Shown one piece after another: positions 18,086 through 37,063 of a stretch of DNA of 38,568 bases. The first letter of the stretch is position 1. Every line of letters starts with the position of its first letter. The notes below the pieces were generated by a model. It did not search any database. It was given only the letters and a program-made list of their open reading frames with translations, and was not told the origin of the DNA. The stretch spans positions 1 through 38,568 of the forward strand of contig JAIQGC010000018.1 of assembly GCA_020072805.1 (NCBI GenBank), read 5' to 3'. The translations under genes were made by a program, and so were the position numbers. The stretch comes from Terriglobia bacterium (GTDB lineage Bacteria > Acidobacteriota > Terriglobia > Acidiferrales > UBA7541).

Positions 18086-19630
18086 TTATTTTGCGATTTC
18101 CACCAGCGCCAGCGCGTGCGGCTGCAGCGTGAGCGTGAGCACCCCGCCATGGAGAGGCATGACCCTGGCCGCGGGCATCGCAGCAGCCTTGAGCAATTCC
18201 TTGAGCTGGGCCTGCGTGGGATATTTCGGCCGCCCCATTTTTTCGTAGGCGGGCAGCGGCGAACCGTGCTCGCGGTCCACGATAGTTACGCGCGCAGATG
18301 TTGCGCCAGCCCCGGCGAGATGGGCCAGGCGCAGCGTCACGGTCTTGGCCGCTCCGGTCTGCTCCGGCAGAAAAAGATTCCACACCGCGATGGCCAGCGA
18401 GCCGTCCTTCCGCCGCGTTACCAGCACCGATTCCGATTGCGCCTCGATGCGCGTTTCGCCCAGGCGGTGCAGCAGCGCAAACGCGTTGAACGCCGGTTTG
18501 GGAATGCCGCCCGCGGCCAGCAGACCGAATCCGCCGTAGAAGGGCTCCTTCACCACTCCCTGCTCCTCGAAGACATCCGAAAATGTCCAGTAGGCGAGAT
18601 TGTCCACCAACCCGTCGCATTGCCGAATGGTGTCCGCCAGCCACGGCCCCATGAACGCCGCGTCGGTCACTTCCGGCTCGTTCTTATAGCTGGCGTTGAA
18701 TTCGCTCCAGATGAGCGGGAGGTTGGGCCGCGCCGAGGCCTTGATCTGCTCGTGCACTTTCTGCACCGCGCGGCAGACCATCTTCGTCCGGGGAATCACT
18801 TCGTGCGTTCCGAAGACGTCTTCGGCAAGATCATTGCCATAGACGTGCGTGGAGACGTAGTCCAGCGGTACATTTTTCTCGGCGCTGTGCGCGATCATGC
18901 GGTCCACCCAGGCGGCCTGTGCCGTGGCCGGGCCGCCCACGCGGATGCGCGGGCTGACCCGCTTCAGAGCCACCGCCGCATGATCATAGAGGTCGAAATA
19001 CGTGGCGTCCTTCGGATTGCCCGCCCAGAAGTCGATGTTGGGCTCGTTCCACACCTCGAAATACCACTGAGCCACTTCGTCTTCGCCGTAGCGCGCCACG
19101 AGGTGCCGCGCGAACTGCTCGATCATCTGTTCCCACTTGTTCAGGTCCTTGGGCGGGGCCACGTTCTGCTTGTACCAGAAGGCGTGCAGCGCACCGGGAT
19201 CGCTGGTGAGTTTCTTGGGCATGAAGCTGAGTTCGACGAAAGGTTTTACGCCGTTCTCGAGCAGGCCGTCGTAAATCTGGTCCACGTAGGAAAAGTTGTA
19301 GACCGGCTTGCCGTCCTTGTCCTCGTCATAGAAGCCCGCCTCGTCCTGGAAGATGGCGTGGAAGCGCACGTATTCGAAACCGGTGATGCGTTTGGTTTCG
19401 CGCAGGTCGTGGCGGTAGCTTTCGCGCAGGGAGAGGATGGCGCGGCCCGAGCCGAACATTTTTTCCCAGAAGTGCGGGAAGGGATGCGCCGCGGCGCGCG
19501 CGTCAATGGCGATGCTTTCGGCCTTCGCGGCGGAGGCCGGCTCCTGGTTCGGCGCGGCCCCGGCAGGGCCGCAAAACAGCGCCAGCGCGGATGCCAACAC
19601 AGCGAAAACACAAACCGAACGACGACGCAT
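18086..19630 (-). CDS. Exported GH39 glycoside hydrolase (beta-xylosidase-like)
   Basis: A 514-residue retaining beta-glycosidase with a signal peptide (MRRRSVCVFAVLASALALF, cleavage near AGAA). The (beta/alpha)8 domain has the acid/base Glu196 in EVWNEPN and the nucleophile Glu310 in IWSEFN, matching clan GH-A family 39, whose best-known members are beta-xylosidases. A C-terminal beta-sandwich follows (about 390-514). GGAG lies just before the ATG at 19630, which is preferred over an in-frame extension upstream. It lies 69 bases behind TonB receptor 1 on the same strand, with a strong hairpin between, so it should be expressed from the same transcript at a different level. It converges on GH144 copy 2 with a 26-base gap. 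Confidence 0.9.
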   Translation of the reverse strand: MRRRSVCVFAVLASALALFCGPAGAAPNQEPASAAKAESIAIDARAAAHPFPHFWEKMFGSGRAILSLRESYRHDLRETKRITGFEYVRFHAIFQDEAGFYDEDKDGKPVYNFSYVDQIYDGLLENGVKPFVELSFMPKKLTSDPGALHAFWYKQNVAPPKDLNKWEQMIEQFARHLVARYGEDEVAQWYFEVWNEPNIDFWAGNPKDATYFDLYDHAAVALKRVSPRIRVGGPATAQAAWVDRMIAHSAEKNVPLDYVSTHVYGNDLAEDVFGTHEVIPRTKMVCRAVQKVHEQIKASARPNLPLIWSEFNASYKNEPEVTDAAFMGPWLADTIRQCDGLVDNLAYWTFSDVFEEQGVVKEPFYGGFGLLAAGGIPKPAFNAFALLHRLGETRIEAQSESVLVTRRKDGSLAIAVWNLFLPEQTGAAKTVTLRLAHLAGAGATSARVTIVDREHGSPLPAYEKMGRPKYPTQAQLKELLKAAAMPAARVMPLHGGVLTLTLQPHALALVEIAK

Positions 19631-19657
19631 TGACTGGCTCCTGAAATGAACTGTGAA

Positions 19658-19689
19658 AGAGCGCCGGAGCCGCAAGGCCCCGGCGCTCT
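19658..19689 (-). promoter_or_regulatory. Strong intercistronic hairpin between TonB receptor 1 and GH39
   Basis: AGAGCGCCGG (19658-19667) pairs perfectly with CCGGCGCTCT (19680-19689). After one mismatch the stem continues with GCC/GGC, closed by a 4-base loop (TTGC on the transcribed strand). Only three T follow on the minus strand, so it is at best a partial terminator. It could attenuate GH39 expression or stabilise the receptor mRNA after processing. The other receptor gene has a comparable hairpin at 33255-33279. Confidence 0.7.
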
Positions 19690-19699
19690 GCATTCGCTG

Positions 19700-22600
19700 C
19701 TAGAAGGACAGCTTAGCCTGAAACTCGATCACGCGCCCGGCGAGCGAACCGCTGGCTTGGCCGAAGTGCGAGTCGTTGATGGACACGTTGTTCGCGCCGC
19801 GCGCAAAGGGTTTCAGGTTCAGTTTGTTGAAGAGGTTGAAGAAATTGACGCGGAAGTCCAGCTTGGCCCCTTCTTTGCCGATGAATGGCACGGGAGTGGA
19901 CTTGGCCAGGCTCATGTCAATCATCTGGTAGCGCGGGCCGCGGAACGAATTGCGATTGATAAATGGCGGACCCTGGGTGCAGACGTCAAAATAGGGTGCG
20001 CCGGCGCCCGGGCAACCCCATCCGGTGCTGATGCCGGTGAAGTTCCCGTTGGGACTCATGAGCGTGTCATTGCTATAGCTTGTCCCCGCGCCGCCGAGAT
20101 ACGCGGTCGCCAGGGCCGGGCACAGCGAACCCTGCGGGCTGGGCGGACAATTATTATTGGCAACGGGCGACCACGGGAAACCGCCGTGGTATTGGAACGT
20201 GGCATCCACGCGCCAGCCGCCGAAGGCTTTCCCCAGCAGGTCTTCGCGGTGCTTGAGAATCGGCAGATCATAGAGCGCCGTGAGCAGCATGTTGTGGGTC
20301 ACGTCGAAATCCGACGGCCCCCAATCCCAAGTCTTGTTCCCGGGATAGAAGGGGTCTCGTTCGCCGCCCGCGCCTTCCCACGAGCCGCCGTCCATGCTGC
20401 GGCCGAGCTGGTACTTGCCGAAGAACTGCACGCCGTGCGAGAAGCTGCGCTTGGCGCTGATGTTCAGGGCGTTGTAGTGGCCGGTGACGTCGGTGGTCGG
20501 GAAGTAGACGGGCGACAAGACCGGGTTCACCTGCGGGTAGACGCGGTTCAGCCCGATAATGCGCAGCATCTTGCGGCTTTGGCTGCCCTGATAGCCGACG
20601 GTCAGGAAGAAATCTCCGGGCAGTTTATGCTCCACTTCCGCCGAGTAGAGATACACATACGGCGTGCGCACGGTCTGCGGAGCGCCCCAGATTTCCACGT
20701 TGCCGGCCAATGGCAGGCCGGTCGCCGGGTTGAAGGTGGCCGCCAGCAGCGGGTTCGCGGGCCAGCTCAGCGGACTGTTGCTCTGGCCTTCGTTGACAAC
20801 GATCAACCCGTTGTCGAAGGGAGCAGCGGCCCAGCCGCCGATGCTGATATTGTCATTCACGCTCATCGCACAGCACAGCCCCTCGCGGAATAGGAACGGG
20901 GGATTCACGCGGCTGATGGCCGTCATGGTGTCGGTGATGCGGTTATAGGCCACGCCGGCGCCCGCGCGGATAACGGTCTTGTTCGAGAACTTCCCAGGCG
21001 CCCAGGTGAAGCCCAGGCGCGGCGCGAAGTTGTTCTTATCCGCGGGATAGAGGGAGCCGCCCACTTGCAGCGTGGCGGTCTGCAACGGGTTGGGGCCGGA
21101 ACCCAGGATGAGGTTGCTCTGGTTGCCGAATTTTTCGTTGAGCGGAGCAAAATATTCGTAGCGCAAGCCCACGTTGATCGTCAGGTTGGGACGCAGTTTG
21201 ATGTCGTCCTGGCCGAAAAAGGCAAAATCATGCTGCCGGTAATATTTGTGGCTGTCGGTCGGAGCACCCGTCCGCGGGTCAATTCCGATGCCCTCGTAGA
21301 TGGGGGCGCCGTTGACGAATTCCCAGATGCCGTGGGCCACATACACGGGCCGCGCCGCTCCGAATTCGTAGTCGTTATTATCCTGGTTGGCCACAAACAC
21401 GAACCCGGTCTTGAGCGCATGCCGTCCGAAGACCTTGCTGAGCGTATCCCGGAATTCGAACTGGTTTTGCGCGAACATGCCCGGTGAATTGGTGCCCTGG
21501 TTCGCTCCGTACTTGATGCGAGCGCCCGGAACTGCCTCGATTTCAAAACGCGGCAGATTCCACTGCACACCTGGATTGCTGGCCAGCTGGTTGGCGAAGA
21601 AGCGCGTCCAGTTGAACCGCGCCTCGTTGTTCATGGTCGGCGAAAGCGTGCGGCTCCACAGGACCGAAGCGTATTTGTTGCGGGGCTGGAATGCGAGGTC
21701 CGCCATCGGCCGGCCGTTGGCGCCCAAATCCCCGCTCACTCCGTTAAAAGGCGTTATATAGAAACTGAATGCAAAGCGATCCTTGGTCCGCTCGTAGTCC
21801 ACACGGGCATTGTATTGATTCCCGCTGGCGTGGCTGGGCGCGTAGGTGATGACTTTCTGCAGGTCCGGGATGCCGTCCAGACCGCCCCCGGTGGTGTTCC
21901 CGCCGAATATGTCCACATACTGCCCGTAACTCCCCGTGGGTGAGCCCAGGTCCACACCGCCGTTAACCACCGTACAGGCGGAGGCGGACGGCCACACGGA
22001 ATTGAAATCCGCGCAACTGGGCGTGAGCACCTGCGCGATGCGCGGCTGCCAGCCGGTGGCGGTGACCAGATCGCCCACCACCGTGCCGGCGCGATTCGCG
22101 GCCATCCACTGCTGCAGCGCCGCGGTCTCCACATACTGCGCATCTGAAAACTGCGCATCGTTGGTGCGGTTTCCCTCATAAGAAAAGAAGAAAAACATTT
22201 TCTCCTTCAGGATGGGCCCGCCGATGCTGCCGCCGAACTGCTTCAGATTGGTCTGCACTTTTTGCGGCGCCTGGCCGTCCGGACCACCCCATTTGTTTTC
22301 GCTGTTCAACCCCGGCCCGTCGTATTTGAAGAAAGCGCTGCCATGCAGGTCGTTGGTGCCATTCTTGGTGACGATCTTGACCTGCGCGCCGGAATTGCGC
22401 CCATCCTCTGCCGAATAGGAATTGGCCACCACGGTCATTTCCTGCACCGACTCCTGGTTGGGCGTGAGAATGGCCGCGCCGCCCCAAGTCAGGCTGTTCA
22501 CGCTGGTGCCGTCAATGGTGAAGTTGTTGCCGCTGTTGCGCTGACCGTTGGCCGTCACCTGTACCTGGTTCTCCACCTGGAAGATGGAAGTGTTCGAGCC

Positions 22601-23158
22601 GCCGGGGCCGCCCGAGTTGGGCAGGTTGGCCGCGCTGCCATTCGAGGCGCGCGCGCCGTCGCCGAATACACCGGGAGCCAGCTTCAGCAACTCATAAGGG
22701 TCGCGGCCGATCTGCGGCAGCCGGCTGATCTCTTCGGCGGAGACGGTCGTGCCGATATTAGCGGTCTCCGTCTGGAGGGCGAGCGCCCCGGCGCTGACCA
22801 CCACCTTCTCGGCCACGGCGCCCACCTCAAGGCTGGCATCAAATCCCCGCACCGTTTCCGCGGCCACATCCACCTCGGCGCTGAGCGTCTTGAAGCCGTC
22901 CTTCGAGAAGCTGACCGTGTACTTGCCCGGCGCCAGTCCGGCAATGCGGTAGAAACCCTCGGCCGAACTGACCGTCTCATGGCTCGCACCCGTACCCTGG
23001 TGTGTGGCCACGATCTTGGCCCCGGGCACCACTCCACCCTTGGCGTCGATGACCGTGCCCTGCAGCGCGGCGTTGAACTGCGCCGCCGCCGGAAACGCCA
23101 GCACGAACAGACTCAGCACACAAACTGTCGCAACGAGAAATCGCAGGCGCATACTCAT
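19700..23158 (-). CDS. TonB-dependent outer-membrane receptor 1 (Oar-like)
   Basis: A 1,152-residue outer-membrane receptor for TonB-driven import, here probably of an oligosaccharide. A signal peptide precedes FNAALQGTVIDAKGGVVPGA, the start of a carboxypeptidase-regulatory-like domain (about 28-110). The plug follows (about 120-250, with GNNFTIDGTSVNSLTWGG), then a long beta-barrel ending in FQAKLSF with the terminal Phe typical of outer-membrane proteins. ATG at 23158 is chosen because GGGGGAG lies 4 bases upstream; an ATG at 23152 is also possible. Acidobacteria use such receptors without a SusD lipoprotein, and none is present. It heads the receptor-GH39 unit and diverges from the LacI-type gene with palindromic operators in between. 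Confidence 0.93.
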   Translation of the reverse strand: MSMRLRFLVATVCVLSLFVLAFPAAAQFNAALQGTVIDAKGGVVPGAKIVATHQGTGASHETVSSAEGFYRIAGLAPGKYTVSFSKDGFKTLSAEVDVAAETVRGFDASLEVGAVAEKVVVSAGALALQTETANIGTTVSAEEISRLPQIGRDPYELLKLAPGVFGDGARASNGSAANLPNSGGPGGSNTSIFQVENQVQVTANGQRNSGNNFTIDGTSVNSLTWGGAAILTPNQESVQEMTVVANSYSAEDGRNSGAQVKIVTKNGTNDLHGSAFFKYDGPGLNSENKWGGPDGQAPQKVQTNLKQFGGSIGGPILKEKMFFFFSYEGNRTNDAQFSDAQYVETAALQQWMAANRAGTVVGDLVTATGWQPRIAQVLTPSCADFNSVWPSASACTVVNGGVDLGSPTGSYGQYVDIFGGNTTGGGLDGIPDLQKVITYAPSHASGNQYNARVDYERTKDRFAFSFYITPFNGVSGDLGANGRPMADLAFQPRNKYASVLWSRTLSPTMNNEARFNWTRFFANQLASNPGVQWNLPRFEIEAVPGARIKYGANQGTNSPGMFAQNQFEFRDTLSKVFGRHALKTGFVFVANQDNNDYEFGAARPVYVAHGIWEFVNGAPIYEGIGIDPRTGAPTDSHKYYRQHDFAFFGQDDIKLRPNLTINVGLRYEYFAPLNEKFGNQSNLILGSGPNPLQTATLQVGGSLYPADKNNFAPRLGFTWAPGKFSNKTVIRAGAGVAYNRITDTMTAISRVNPPFLFREGLCCAMSVNDNISIGGWAAAPFDNGLIVVNEGQSNSPLSWPANPLLAATFNPATGLPLAGNVEIWGAPQTVRTPYVYLYSAEVEHKLPGDFFLTVGYQGSQSRKMLRIIGLNRVYPQVNPVLSPVYFPTTDVTGHYNALNISAKRSFSHGVQFFGKYQLGRSMDGGSWEGAGGERDPFYPGNKTWDWGPSDFDVTHNMLLTALYDLPILKHREDLLGKAFGGWRVDATFQYHGGFPWSPVANNNCPPSPQGSLCPALATAYLGGAGTSYSNDTLMSPNGNFTGISTGWGCPGAGAPYFDVCTQGPPFINRNSFRGPRYQMIDMSLAKSTPVPFIGKEGAKLDFRVNFFNLFNKLNLKPFARGANNVSINDSHFGQASGSLAGRVIEFQAKLSF

Positions 23159-23203
23159 CTCTCTCCCCCTCACATTTGAAACATTCGCAACCGTAAACCG
23201 ACC

Positions 23204-23219
23204 GTAAGAACGTTCTTAC
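23204..23219. promoter_or_regulatory. Perfect 16-bp palindrome (operator A)
   Basis: GTAAGAACGTTCTTAC equals its own reverse complement and has the central CG common to LacI-family operators. It sits between the predicted TonB receptor 1 promoter and its Shine-Dalgarno, a repressing position. It shares base 23219 with the next palindrome. Confidence 0.62.
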
Positions 23220-23232
23220 TAAATCGATTTAG
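23219..23232. promoter_or_regulatory. Perfect 14-bp palindrome (operator B)
   Basis: CTAAATCGATTTAG is a perfect palindrome with central CG, abutting operator A. Their centres are about 14 bases apart. The core AAATCGATTT is repeated at 15357-15366 before the GH144 genes. The divergent LacI-family regulator gene (23428-24495) is the obvious candidate to bind it. Confidence 0.65.
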
Positions 23233-23249
23233 CATACTAAGTTCCTCCC

Positions 23250-23277
23250 TTTTATTGCTCTTTCCCGGAACTGTCAA
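23250..23277 (-). promoter_or_regulatory. Predicted promoter of TonB receptor 1
   Basis: On the minus strand, consensus TTGACA (23277-23272) is followed after 16 bases by ATAAAA (23255-23250). Transcription would start near 23243, placing operators A and B just downstream of the start. The remaining part of 23159-23427 must also hold the promoter of the lacI-type gene, which I cannot pinpoint. Confidence 0.5.
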
Positions 23278-23427: not shown

Positions 23428-24495
23428 ATGCCTCGCAAAAAAGAGCCGCGCGCCGCAGCCTCCGGCTCAGCCGCGCAATCCATCAGCCAGAAAGCCCTGG
23501 CCGAACATTTGGGACTCTCCCCGGCCACCATTTCTCTGGTCATCAACCGCTCTCCGGCGGCCCATTCCATTCCCCAGGAAACCAAGGAACGCATCTTCGC
23601 CGCGGCCAAGCGCCTCAACTACCGCCCGAATTTCGCGGCCCGCTCGCTGCGCAAGCAGCGCAGCTTCACCATCGGCGTGGTCGTTCCGGAAATCAGCGAA
23701 GGCTACGCCGCACTGGTACTGAGCGGCATCGAAGACCAGTTGCTCCAGGAAGGCTATTTTTATTTCATGGTCAGCCACCGGCACCGCGAGGATCTGCTGG
23801 AGAATTATCCGCGGCTGCTGATGAACCGCGCCGTCGAAGGCCTGATCGCCGTGGACACTCCCTGCCGCCACTCCATTCCCCTCCCCGTCGTCTCCATCTC
23901 CGGATACAGCGAAGCGCCCGGAGTCACCAACATCGTGCTGAACCACGAGCGCGCGGCCATGCTCGCGCTCGATCACCTCTTTCACCTGGGCCACCGGCAG
24001 ATCGCCTTTATCAAGGGACAGGAATTCAGTTCGGACACCGAAGCGCGCTGGAACGCCATCCTCCTGGCGGCCAAGACACTGGGACTTAAGGTACGTCCGA
24101 ACCTGGTGGCGCAATTGGAAGGCGACGCGCCTTCTCCTGAACTCGGTTATCACGTCGCGCAAAAACTCCTGGGCGGAGGGCAGCGCTTCACCGCCCTGTT
24201 TGCCTTCAACGATATCTCCGCGATTGGCGCCATTCGCGCTTTGCGGGAAGCCGGGCTGCGTGTTCCCGAGGACGTTTCCGTCGTGGGCTTTGACGATATC
24301 CAGAGCGCGGCCTATCAGAACCCCGGACTCACCACTGTCCGCCAGCCGCTCCGCCAGATGGGCGTCCTTGCGGCGGAGAACGTCCTGCAGCGCATTACCG
24401 CGCCCGCTCGCTCGGCCTCCAAGAAACTCATCACCGTCGAACCGGAGCTCATCGTGCGCGGCAGCACCGGCCCCGTGAACGCCGGACGGGAGTAA
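23428..24495 (+). CDS. LacI-family transcriptional regulator
   Basis: A 355-residue sugar-responsive DNA-binding protein, presumably a repressor. The helix-turn-helix spans about residues 18-42 (SISQKALAEHLGLSPATISL), followed by the hinge helix region (NYRPNFAARSLR) and a periplasmic-binding-protein-like effector domain with IGVVVPEISEGYAA, HLGHRQIAFIKG, FAFNDISAIGAIRAL and VSVVGFDDIQSAAYQNPGLTTVRQP. ATG at 23428 (MPRKKEP) fits family length; in-frame ATGs at 23410 and 23359 add Pro-rich sequence, and none has a good Shine-Dalgarno. It is transcribed divergently from TonB receptor 1, and palindromic operators lie in between, so local control of the receptor-GH39 unit is likely. Confidence 0.93.
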   Translation: MPRKKEPRAAASGSAAQSISQKALAEHLGLSPATISLVINRSPAAHSIPQETKERIFAAAKRLNYRPNFAARSLRKQRSFTIGVVVPEISEGYAALVLSGIEDQLLQEGYFYFMVSHRHREDLLENYPRLLMNRAVEGLIAVDTPCRHSIPLPVVSISGYSEAPGVTNIVLNHERAAMLALDHLFHLGHRQIAFIKGQEFSSDTEARWNAILLAAKTLGLKVRPNLVAQLEGDAPSPELGYHVAQKLLGGGQRFTALFAFNDISAIGAIRALREAGLRVPEDVSVVGFDDIQSAAYQNPGLTTVRQPLRQMGVLAAENVLQRITAPARSASKKLITVEPELIVRGSTGPVNAGRE

Positions 24496-33303: not shown

Positions 33304-36300
33304 TTAGAAATACAGCTTGGCGCCAAGTTGCAGGACGCGGGGGCCGCCGACGCCGCCATAGGTGTCCGTGTTGGTCCCCCAGTTGGAGCCCTTCGAGACG
33401 GAGAAAGCGCTTGGCGACCATCCGGCCGGCCCGCTCCCTGCCTGCCCACCGTAGGCCCACTGCCACGGCCCGTCGACATTAAAGTTGTAGTTCTTGTTGT
33501 TGAAATTGGGATGATTGAACGCGTTGAACGCTTCCAGACGAATCTGGAGGTAGCGCCGTTCATTGGAACCCAGCGGAATGTTCTTGAACAAGGACAAGTC
33601 CCAGTCCTGCATTCCGCCGGTCCGCAGCCGGTCGCGTGTCCCCCGTACGACAGTGCCCATTGCAGGCAGGATAGCGTTCCCGCTGCTGTCCAGCGAATAG
33701 TAAGCCTGGATAGCTCCCCACATGTTCGAGCCGTCCATAGCTCCGGACTCCCACGACCAATGATTGGTCAAATCGATGGGCGTTCCAGTCATGAACTGGG
33801 TCACGCCGCTCAACTGGTAGTTATCCGTGATATAACCCAGCCATTTCGATCCGCCAAAATGCTTCGCCAATTTCGGCAGTTCGTAAACATAGTTGGCGGC
33901 AAAGACGTGTGTGCGATCCCATCCCGCGGCCCGGTAATCGACCGAGCGAGGGAGAAAAGGATCCTGGAAGTCCTCGTCGGAATTGGCCGTGGTGAGCGAT
34001 TTCGACCAGGTGTAGACCGCCCCGAGAGTCAGACCTTTGACGAAGCGGCGCTGCAAGGAAACTTGCAGCGAATTGTAATTGGAAGTGCCGTCGAACTGAA
34101 GATATTCAATCTGGCCATACCCTTTATAGGGAACCAGCGGCGCATTGGAGTACGACTGTCTTCCGTAGGCGTAAGCACCGGAGAAATTGTACCCCGCCGT
34201 CGCGTAGACCGCCGGGAGCCCCGGTTCCACCGCCGGAATCCCGCCCGTGCAGGGATTGCCCGGCAGTGGGCTCGCACAGTAGGTCGTGAAGTTGGCCGGG
34301 TCCTGAGCGGCAGTGGTGAATGCATAGCCATAGGGAATGGCATTAATGTCGCGAGCGGTGACCAGGTGGCGCGAGAGCGTGCCGACATAGGCCATATCGA
34401 GAGTGGTGCCGCGGGCGATTTCGCGCTGCAGGCCGAGGCTGAAACTGTACACCGTGGGAACCTTGCCGTCCCGTGCGGCGCCGTAGACGTTGCTGAGGGG
34501 CTGCGTGGCCAGGCCCGCAGCCGCAGCGGCGGCCAAGGAGGGCAGGTTGGAGATGTTATTCCCCCACACGACGGGAGTTTGCACCAGCGCCGCGTTTTCG
34601 AAAACGGTGTTATAGATCAGGTTGCCTTGGGTGCGGTCGTGCATCATGCCAATGCCGCCGCGCAGAACAGTCTTGTGATTGCCGAATAGGTCATAGGCAA
34701 ATCCCAGGCGCGGCTCGGGCATGATGCCGTGACTGTTCCATCCACCCACGGGAGCGGTGCCGTTATTGGTGAAAGTCATGCCGTTGAGCGGATTGCCGCC
34801 AGCCGCTACGTTGATCGAACCGTCGGTATTGATCGTGACCGCATTGGCCGGATTATAGGAGGCCGGGTCAAAGAGGGCGATCTGGTTCCTGGCATCGGTT
34901 TGCGGAGGGATCCAGGCAAACCGCATCCCGTAGTCCAGTGTAAAGCGCGGGGTGACTTTCCATGTGTCCTGAACGTAGAACTCCAGCTGGTTGTAGCGGA
35001 AATAGCCTACTGGACGCGTGTTGGTCTGAATGAATTTGTCGAAACTGCCCAGCAACATGCTGGCAAACGCATCGCCGCAGGAGGTATTTGCCGGGCAGGA
35101 TGCCAAATTGGTGGGACCATTTCCAAATTGGAACTCGCCGTTGTTGTTGCCCCAGGCGACCTGATCCTTACGGTTACGCTGATAGAAAACGCCGAACTTG
35201 AGGGTGTGCGACTTCTTCACCCAGGTCAGGTTGTCGTTTACGTTGATGGTGGTATTGGCCTGGTACCAGGGAGTGGCGCCGAGGTAGTTCCAATTCCATT
35301 GGTTGTTCTTTTCATCCCACCATTGCACGTCGGGAATGTTATCGGCAGCCGTGAGCGGATAGAACAGGGACATGTTGTTGAGGTTGTTCACGCCGCGGGA
35401 GAGGAAGTCGCTGTTGGCGCCGGCGCGGGTCTTGGTCACGCTCGGTCCGACGGAAAATTCATTCAGCAAGTTCGACCGAAGAGTGCTCACCAGATTCAGC
35501 GAAAGATTCCAGCCGGGGTGCTTCGAAGAGCAAGTGCCGGTCATGGAGTAGCCGCTGGCGCAACCCAGTACACCAAGCCCCCCGGGGAGAAGGCCGGAGG
35601 TCGCCGTGTCCGAGTTGTGGATCCAGCGGCCGAAGAGGCGATGGCTGGAGTTGATCTGATAGTCCACGCGAAGGATGTCTTCGCGGCGCGGGTCGCTGTA
35701 GGACGGGTTGACCGAATAATTGTAGTTATTTCCATTGCTGCCGTAGCCGGGGACGTTGGGGAGGGGGAAAAGGTTGAGCAACGTCAGCATCTGGTCAAAT
35801 ACCACCTGTTGCGCGGGGCTGAGCAGATTGCGGTCAATCTTGTTCGTGCCGGGAACGATTCCCGCGCCCGCGATGGCTACGGGATTCCCGTTTTGAGCCA
35901 CCGACTGCGAGAAGTCACCGGTACGCTCGAGCGCCGTCGGCGTGTAAAAGGTGGAAAGTCCCACGGGAATGAGCTGGCGGTAGAACTCCTGGTTCCAGAA
36001 GAAGAACAGTTTGTCCTTGCTCTTATTGAAATCCGTTCCGGGGATGAGCACCGGGCCGCCCAATTGATATCCGATGTAGTTGTAGCGGTATTTGGCGATG
36101 GGGGTTCCGTTTTTATTGGCGAACCAGTCGTTGGCGTTCATGCCTTCGTTGCGGTGAAAAAGGCGGACGTTGCCGTGGAAATCGTTGGTGCCGCCCTTGG
36201 TGACGATGGCGATCTGTCCGCCGGCGGCCTTGCCGAATTCGGCCTGGTAGTTGGAGGTGAGGATTTTGACTTCCTCGATGGCGTCGGGGTTGATCGTGAC

Positions 36301-36960
36301 GTGCGTGCCGCCGTTGTTGCCGGTGTCCACGTTGGAGGCGCCGTCGATGGTGAACTCGTGCTGATTGGCTCGCGTGCCGTTGATGTTCATCGCGTCCAGG
36401 CCGCCGGTGCCGGAGGCGTGGCCGTCAAAGCTGCTGACGACGCCGGGAATCAGCTTCATGTAATCCAGAACGTTGCGGCCGTTCATGGCCACGTCGTTCA
36501 ATTGCTTGCTGGAAATCAGGTCGGAGCGTTCGCCGGAATTGGACTGCAACTGCATCTGCGCCGCTTCGGCGGTCACGGTGACCTGTTCGGCGGCGGCGCC
36601 CACGGTGAGGGAGAATTCGCCGGCGTTCAGGCGATCGGCGGCGGAGAGGACCAGTCCGGTCTTTTCCAGTTTCTTGAAGCCCGCGGCTTCCACGGTGATG
36701 GCGTAGGCGCCCGGAGGGAGATTGGGGAGCACGAAGCCGCCTTCATCGTTGGTGGATACGGTGCGCGTGATGCCTTCGGAGGCATTCGTGGCGGTGACCT
36801 TGGCATGCGGAACCGTGGCTCCGCTGGGATCCTTGACGGTCCCGAAAATCGTGCCGGAAGTGACCTGCGCGGACGAAACCGCGGCGCAGACGCTCAGGAG
36901 CAATGCGAGCACCAGGCTCTGCCAAACGATTCGTACAATTGTATTCTGCTTGCTGACCAT
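33304..36960 (-). CDS. TonB-dependent outer-membrane receptor 2 (Oar-like)
   Basis: A 1,218-residue outer-membrane receptor. A signal peptide (about 1-31, LVLALLLSVCAAVSSAQ) precedes the carboxypeptidase-regulatory-like domain (SGTIFGTVKDPSGATVPHAK, to about 115). The plug has LMEMN-free features such as VAMNGRNVLDYMKLIPGVV and HEFTIDGASNVDTGNNGG. The barrel ends in LQLGAKLYF with terminal Phe. ATG at 36960 is chosen because GGAGGG lies 5-6 bases upstream and the signal peptide follows. It is the first gene of the receptor-GH3-GH16 unit and lies 175 bases behind the response regulator gene, with two inverted repeats between. It is only distantly similar to receptor 1 in the barrel, so a different ligand is likely. 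Confidence 0.93.
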   Translation of the reverse strand: MVSKQNTIVRIVWQSLVLALLLSVCAAVSSAQVTSGTIFGTVKDPSGATVPHAKVTATNASEGITRTVSTNDEGGFVLPNLPPGAYAITVEAAGFKKLEKTGLVLSAADRLNAGEFSLTVGAAAEQVTVTAEAAQMQLQSNSGERSDLISSKQLNDVAMNGRNVLDYMKLIPGVVSSFDGHASGTGGLDAMNINGTRANQHEFTIDGASNVDTGNNGGTHVTINPDAIEEVKILTSNYQAEFGKAAGGQIAIVTKGGTNDFHGNVRLFHRNEGMNANDWFANKNGTPIAKYRYNYIGYQLGGPVLIPGTDFNKSKDKLFFFWNQEFYRQLIPVGLSTFYTPTALERTGDFSQSVAQNGNPVAIAGAGIVPGTNKIDRNLLSPAQQVVFDQMLTLLNLFPLPNVPGYGSNGNNYNYSVNPSYSDPRREDILRVDYQINSSHRLFGRWIHNSDTATSGLLPGGLGVLGCASGYSMTGTCSSKHPGWNLSLNLVSTLRSNLLNEFSVGPSVTKTRAGANSDFLSRGVNNLNNMSLFYPLTAADNIPDVQWWDEKNNQWNWNYLGATPWYQANTTINVNDNLTWVKKSHTLKFGVFYQRNRKDQVAWGNNNGEFQFGNGPTNLASCPANTSCGDAFASMLLGSFDKFIQTNTRPVGYFRYNQLEFYVQDTWKVTPRFTLDYGMRFAWIPPQTDARNQIALFDPASYNPANAVTINTDGSINVAAGGNPLNGMTFTNNGTAPVGGWNSHGIMPEPRLGFAYDLFGNHKTVLRGGIGMMHDRTQGNLIYNTVFENAALVQTPVVWGNNISNLPSLAAAAAAGLATQPLSNVYGAARDGKVPTVYSFSLGLQREIARGTTLDMAYVGTLSRHLVTARDINAIPYGYAFTTAAQDPANFTTYCASPLPGNPCTGGIPAVEPGLPAVYATAGYNFSGAYAYGRQSYSNAPLVPYKGYGQIEYLQFDGTSNYNSLQVSLQRRFVKGLTLGAVYTWSKSLTTANSDEDFQDPFLPRSVDYRAAGWDRTHVFAANYVYELPKLAKHFGGSKWLGYITDNYQLSGVTQFMTGTPIDLTNHWSWESGAMDGSNMWGAIQAYYSLDSSGNAILPAMGTVVRGTRDRLRTGGMQDWDLSLFKNIPLGSNERRYLQIRLEAFNAFNHPNFNNKNYNFNVDGPWQWAYGGQAGSGPAGWSPSAFSVSKGSNWGTNTDTYGGVGGPRVLQLGAKLYF

Positions 36961-37063
36961 TCCACCCTCCAATGACATTTTTGCGGCGAAGCGCGCGGAA
37001 ACTTCAGGAAGCGCTCGCCCGTCCCCATCGGGCAATTGATGGGCGCATGGTATTGCGGGGAAA

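Follow-up and report, generated by a model that had tools for sequence, protein, structure and literature searches.

A conserved candidate LacI-family operator and an abutting second palindrome between a TonB-dependent receptor gene and its divergent repressor gene

The locus and its two palindromes

The window analyzed here, i.e., the whole stretch of 38,568 nucleotides, is one entire contig of a 3.98-Mb genome. Within it, a region of 269 bp divides the gene of an Oar-like TonB-dependent receptor from a LacI-family gene (Table 1). The receptor gene probably forms one operon with a gene of glycoside hydrolase family 39 (GH39), and among named records, those with the most similar receptor (75% identity) are metagenome assemblies of Acidobacteria group 2. 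The product of the divergent gene has the composition of a LacI-family transcription factor, with an N-terminal LacI helix-turn-helix (HTH) domain (PF00356, 33.8 bits at a cut-off of 27) and a periplasmic-binding-protein-like sensor domain (PF13377, 115.9 bits). Elsewhere on the contig (29812-37768), a second Oar-like receptor gene (33304-37035) precedes GH3 and GH16 genes of the same orientation, and a gene for a LuxR-type response regulator lies upstream of it; the candidate operator described below has no counterpart at this receptor.

Table 1. Features of the locus and placement of the operator motif in the genome.
Feature	Position	Strand	Basis or remark
GH39 gene	18086-19693	-	Pfam; start 6 bp past receptor end
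Oar-like TonB-dependent receptor gene	19700-23158	-	Pfam OMP_b-brl_4 and CarboxypepD_reg
16-bp perfect palindrome GTAAGAACGTTCTTAC	23204-23219		Function unproven
14-bp perfect palindrome CTAAATCGATTTAG	23219-23232		Candidate operator of the adjacent LacI-family repressor
Operator core TAAATCGATTTA	23220-23231		Within CTAAATCGATTTAG
Probable -10, weak (ATAAAA / TAAAAG)	23249-23255	-	Sequence
-35 of the TonB-receptor promoter (TTGACA)	23277-23272	-	Sequence
LacI-family repressor gene	23428-24495	+	Divergent from receptor; Pfam PF00356 and PF13377
TNAANCGATTTA site 1	This intergenic region		TonB receptor/lacI
TNAANCGATTTA site 2	C47:81661		Directly after TATAAT (-10) of a phosphofructokinase (PFK) gene
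TNAANCGATTTA site 3	C103:2270		Before a sodium:solute symporter (SSF) gene beside a GH30 gene

A sequence-only reading of this DNA had pointed out two perfect palindromes of 16 bp and 14 bp in the intergenic region, and they are present exactly as claimed, with base 23219 common to both (a 1-bp overlap) and their centers 14 bp apart. LacI-family operators are even palindromes with a central CG (PMC4052901), and the central CG that had been ascribed to both sequences is indeed found in CTAAATCGATTTAG and in GTAAGAACGTTCTTAC, each of even length. The two also lie just downstream of a TTGACA/ATAAAA promoter, as described, on the minus strand, though its -10 element is weak and goes unreported in a strict sigma-70 scan; the spacer measures 16 nt with ATAAAA or 17 nt with TAAAAG.

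Taken alone, each palindrome is unremarkable in the window because the counts are near those of dinucleotide shuffles, with six perfect palindromes of at least 14 bp (4.6 expected) and two of at least 16 bp (1.2 expected). Unlike either palindrome by itself, their juxtaposition is unusual, and none of 200 shuffles of the window contained an abutting pair (one of at least 14 bp and one of at least 16 bp, no more than 5 bp apart). For the 269-bp intergenic region alone, the probability of a palindrome is ca. 0.0015 at a length of at least 16 bp and ca. 0.007 at a length of at least 14 bp. A further perfect 16-bp palindrome, CCGAAGACGTCTTCGG, lies inside the GH39 gene (18810-18825), in line with chance expectation, and a direct repeat of ACCGTAA at 23190 and 23201 (11-bp step, spanning 23190-23207) is found beside the 16-bp palindrome of the intergenic region.

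Conservation and promoter position of the 14-bp palindrome

Relatives of the LacI-family protein were found in 52 of the 89 genomes of the family, and we scanned 420 bp upstream of the best 29 orthologue loci besides the window. The core TAAATCGATTTA recurs with no more than one mismatch upstream of 24 of these 29 orthologues, compared to a maximum of one in 200 shuffled sets, while five of the 30 loci (window counted) have no detectable operator site. The 14-bp palindrome is thus kept in orthologous regions, and judging from this phylogenetic footprint, the neighboring LacI-family repressor very probably uses CTAAATCGATTTAG as its operator. The sequence-only reading had proposed that LacI-type operators directly follow the promoter of the receptor gene, and this part of it holds for the 14-bp palindrome but not for its 16-bp neighbor.

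Variation among the conserved sites follows the regulator: all 15 classified loci with recognition helices of the type S[QK][AT]AVS (QAAVS/KTAVS) carry TAAACCGATTTA, while PAT, VAT, or TAT helices go along with TAAATCGATTTA or its single-base variants TAAAACGATTTA and TAAATCGTTTTA. The operator variant therefore appears to track the recognition helix, but this covariation is confounded with phylogeny. In the TonB-receptor leaders of five loci (L036, L037, L041, L045, and L049), a stretch 3' of the operator is kept as well (GCTGAGGGTG / CTTAAGGGTG).

The position of the site within promoters is similarly regular. An exact TTGACA precedes the operator by 38-48 nt in all 13 TonB-receptor (TBDT) loci with a site, window included; counted from the first base of this hexamer, the core begins at 44-48 nt in 11 of them, just past the -10 element, and at 42 and 38 nt in the other two. 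A different layout is found at the GH3-linked loci (L010-L030), where the divergent gene encodes a relative of beta-glucosidases (GH3, identified by Pfam in L011) and the operator lies between the -35-like TTGTAA/TTGATA and the -10-like TAGTAT/TAGCAT of the GH3 promoter, which are separated by a 17-nt spacer. The operator thus occupies two different promoter positions even though the regulator is still orthologous, and its placement suggests that bound repressor and polymerase would hinder each other in both layouts.

Since both palindromes lie in the predicted leader of the receptor transcript and could form one extended hairpin, they might instead act in the 5' untranslated RNA, e.g., as a riboswitch, rather than in DNA. 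However, the leader folds no better than shuffled sequences (z = -0.56) and has no Rfam match, and we rejected a riboswitch or RNA hairpin on these two grounds. The operator of the GH3 loci lies between -35 and -10 and hence outside the transcript, which also speaks against a role in RNA, and we consider such a role highly improbable.

Readings of the 16-bp palindrome

The evidence for the 16-bp palindrome is different. In its own genome, no other copy of GTAAGAACGTTCTTAC exists within two mismatches, and at three mismatches the counts are below those of the control (five per strand, itself included, versus seven). Copies with two mismatches are scattered over the 88 relatives, none of them at orthologous promoters, so that phylogenetic footprinting fails for this palindrome; the nearest relatives compared are ca. 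72-76% identical in their receptor and LacI proteins. Its 14-bp core is found in two of 399 genomes of the class, i.e., in one besides its own, and the reversed control in three; the other exact match (locus L144 of genome G366) has no LacI or TonB-receptor context among the listed open frames. We therefore rejected a regulon for the 16-bp palindrome in its own genome, the family, or the class. Its arms differ from those of the operator as had been noted, with agreement at 6 of 12 core positions, while most orthologous sites differ from the core by only 0-2. In sum, GTAAGAACGTTCTTAC is neither a conserved or recurrent motif nor similar to the other sites of the regulator.

The same regulator had been proposed to bind both palindromes as a double site, and there is precedent for such arrangements. 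Distances between sites of LacI-family regulators peak at 13 bp, and such overlaps are reported for 110 operons; GntR at gntKU is among the examples, and the arrangement is noted to be structurally puzzling (Ravcheev et al. 2014, PMC4052901). The locus studied here likewise has two overlapping CG-centered palindromes at nearly the same distance, and GTAAGAACGTTCTTAC could thus be a weak site overlapping a strong one. A distant orthologue locus (L145 of genome G091) indeed displays the half-operators TGAACCG, TAAATCG, and TAAATCG upstream of its LacI orthologue with an exact 13-bp period, which makes it a clean example of such overlapping sites, and the window contains a TAAACCG half-site at 23194 that is 26 bp (two times 13) from the TAAATCG at 23220. 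However, both sites at gntKU serve one regulator, whereas the arms of the two palindromes differ at half of the core positions here, the second site is not conserved, and the spacing is 14 bp with a different motif rather than ca. 13 bp with a single one. Extra half-sites are also no more common than expected in 35 promoters (five seen versus ca. 6.5 from a rough base-frequency estimate), and a regular 13-bp array in relatives was rejected because it is seen at L145 only. Simultaneous occupancy as a double site would be unlikely in any case because dimers 14 bp apart would collide in their usual binding mode. We thus find the proposed double site unsupported and regard it as unlikely that both palindromes are LacI sites.

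As a variant of this idea, the operator could be the end of an overlapping array composed of the TAAACCG half-site, GTAAGAACGTTCTTAC, and TAAATCGATTTA in steps of 12 and 14 bp, on which a dimer would bind in alternative registers with different affinity. We consider this unlikely; if true, the alternative registers would tune the sugar response, and L145 would represent a cleaner version with a 13-bp period.

Competition between two different regulators had been suggested as the other option. For two regulators of LacI type this does not hold, because a search of the genome detected a single LacI-family HTH above the cut-off, that of the gene at 23428-24495; a second LacI regulator in the assembly was rejected since the only other match is RpoN and falls below the threshold. 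Several regulators often share one promoter, and a protein of another family might bind the 16-bp palindrome in competition with, or in addition to, the LacI repressor. Perfect 16-bp symmetry abutting a genuine operator is improbable by chance in view of the shuffles, which argues for such a protein, but the palindrome neither recurs in the genome nor in the class beyond the counts given above and comes without a candidate regulator. We therefore view a non-LacI regulator as possible but rather doubtful.

This leaves the reading that GTAAGAACGTTCTTAC is a chance or non-functional sequence adjoining the true operator. While 1.2 palindromes of at least 16 bp are expected per window and this one is neither conserved nor recurrent, it is improbable, at ca. 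1 in 1000 or less by a rough estimate, that it would adjoin the operator so exactly, and we see this reading as evenly balanced between true and false. The 16-bp palindrome is real, but a function is not supported; it is no part of the conserved operator, and the simplest view is that it is lineage-specific or due to chance.

A predicted regulon for polysaccharide uptake

The motif TNAANCGATTTA occurs at only three places in the 3.98-Mb genome, all of them before carbohydrate genes (Table 1), and it is therefore probable from the placement of these sites that the same repressor also controls the phosphofructokinase and sodium:solute symporter genes. The count of this motif exceeds its control only slightly, and the broader pattern TAAANCGNTTTA shows no excess (four in the genome versus six for the reversed control). 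The argument for a regulon rests on where the sites are placed. A sister genome, G029, encodes a LacI orthologue of 72% identity and has near-perfect sites at lacI/TBDT, pfk (TAAAGCGATTTA), and the symporter gene (TAAAACGATTTA), though the pfk site may not be homologous in the strict sense given its location at -25 rather than -43. In another sister genome, G028, no LacI orthologue was found at the threshold used, the symporter site is absent, and the pfk site has two mismatches. The case for a three-target regulon is limited to this species and G029 because most other relatives lack the pfk and symporter sites, and the extension to these genes is probably recent.

The explanation that we favor with considerable confidence is that the repressor has its operator in the 14-bp palindrome, while the 16-bp palindrome does not belong to this conserved element and is, most simply, a lineage-specific or chance sequence. 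It builds on the conservation, position, and rarity of the site, on the genes that it reaches, and on the single LacI-family protein of the genome. With the -10 element ca. 17 nt after the -35, we infer a transcription start that would place a LacI-family dimer on CTAAATCGATTTAG at ca. +10 to +22 of the receptor/GH39 transcript. The bound dimer would stop transcription from the TTGACA promoter until an imported sugar or a metabolite thereof frees the repressor from its operator. By acting at pfk and the symporter gene as well, the same repressor may tie oligosaccharide uptake to glycolysis.

Such a system would closely resemble the local carbohydrate regulons of the RegPrecise set (PMC4052901), in which an even palindrome with central CG and a divergent, adjoining lacI gene are likewise found before genes of sugar uptake and hydrolases. 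It differs in that Acidobacteria and TonB receptors are absent from the text of that paper, and in its targets, which are an Oar-like receptor, GH39 or GH3, PFK, and an SSF symporter. The predicted glycolytic target, phosphofructokinase, is shared in kind with the LacI-family regulons of central carbon metabolism in Proteobacteria (GluR, PckR, GapR, and FruR); the regulon proposed here has only three predicted targets, and its regulator is encoded beside a polysaccharide locus. Searches of the literature on this operator sequence, or on LacI in Acidobacteria, found nothing relevant. Judged by its sequence and conservation, the site is a predicted operator of a familiar type, and these searches found none described for its lineage. 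For the group 2 Acidobacteria of soil, where we found no LacI regulon on record, our analysis thus provides a predicted operator, a promoter architecture, and a three-gene regulon for polysaccharide uptake.
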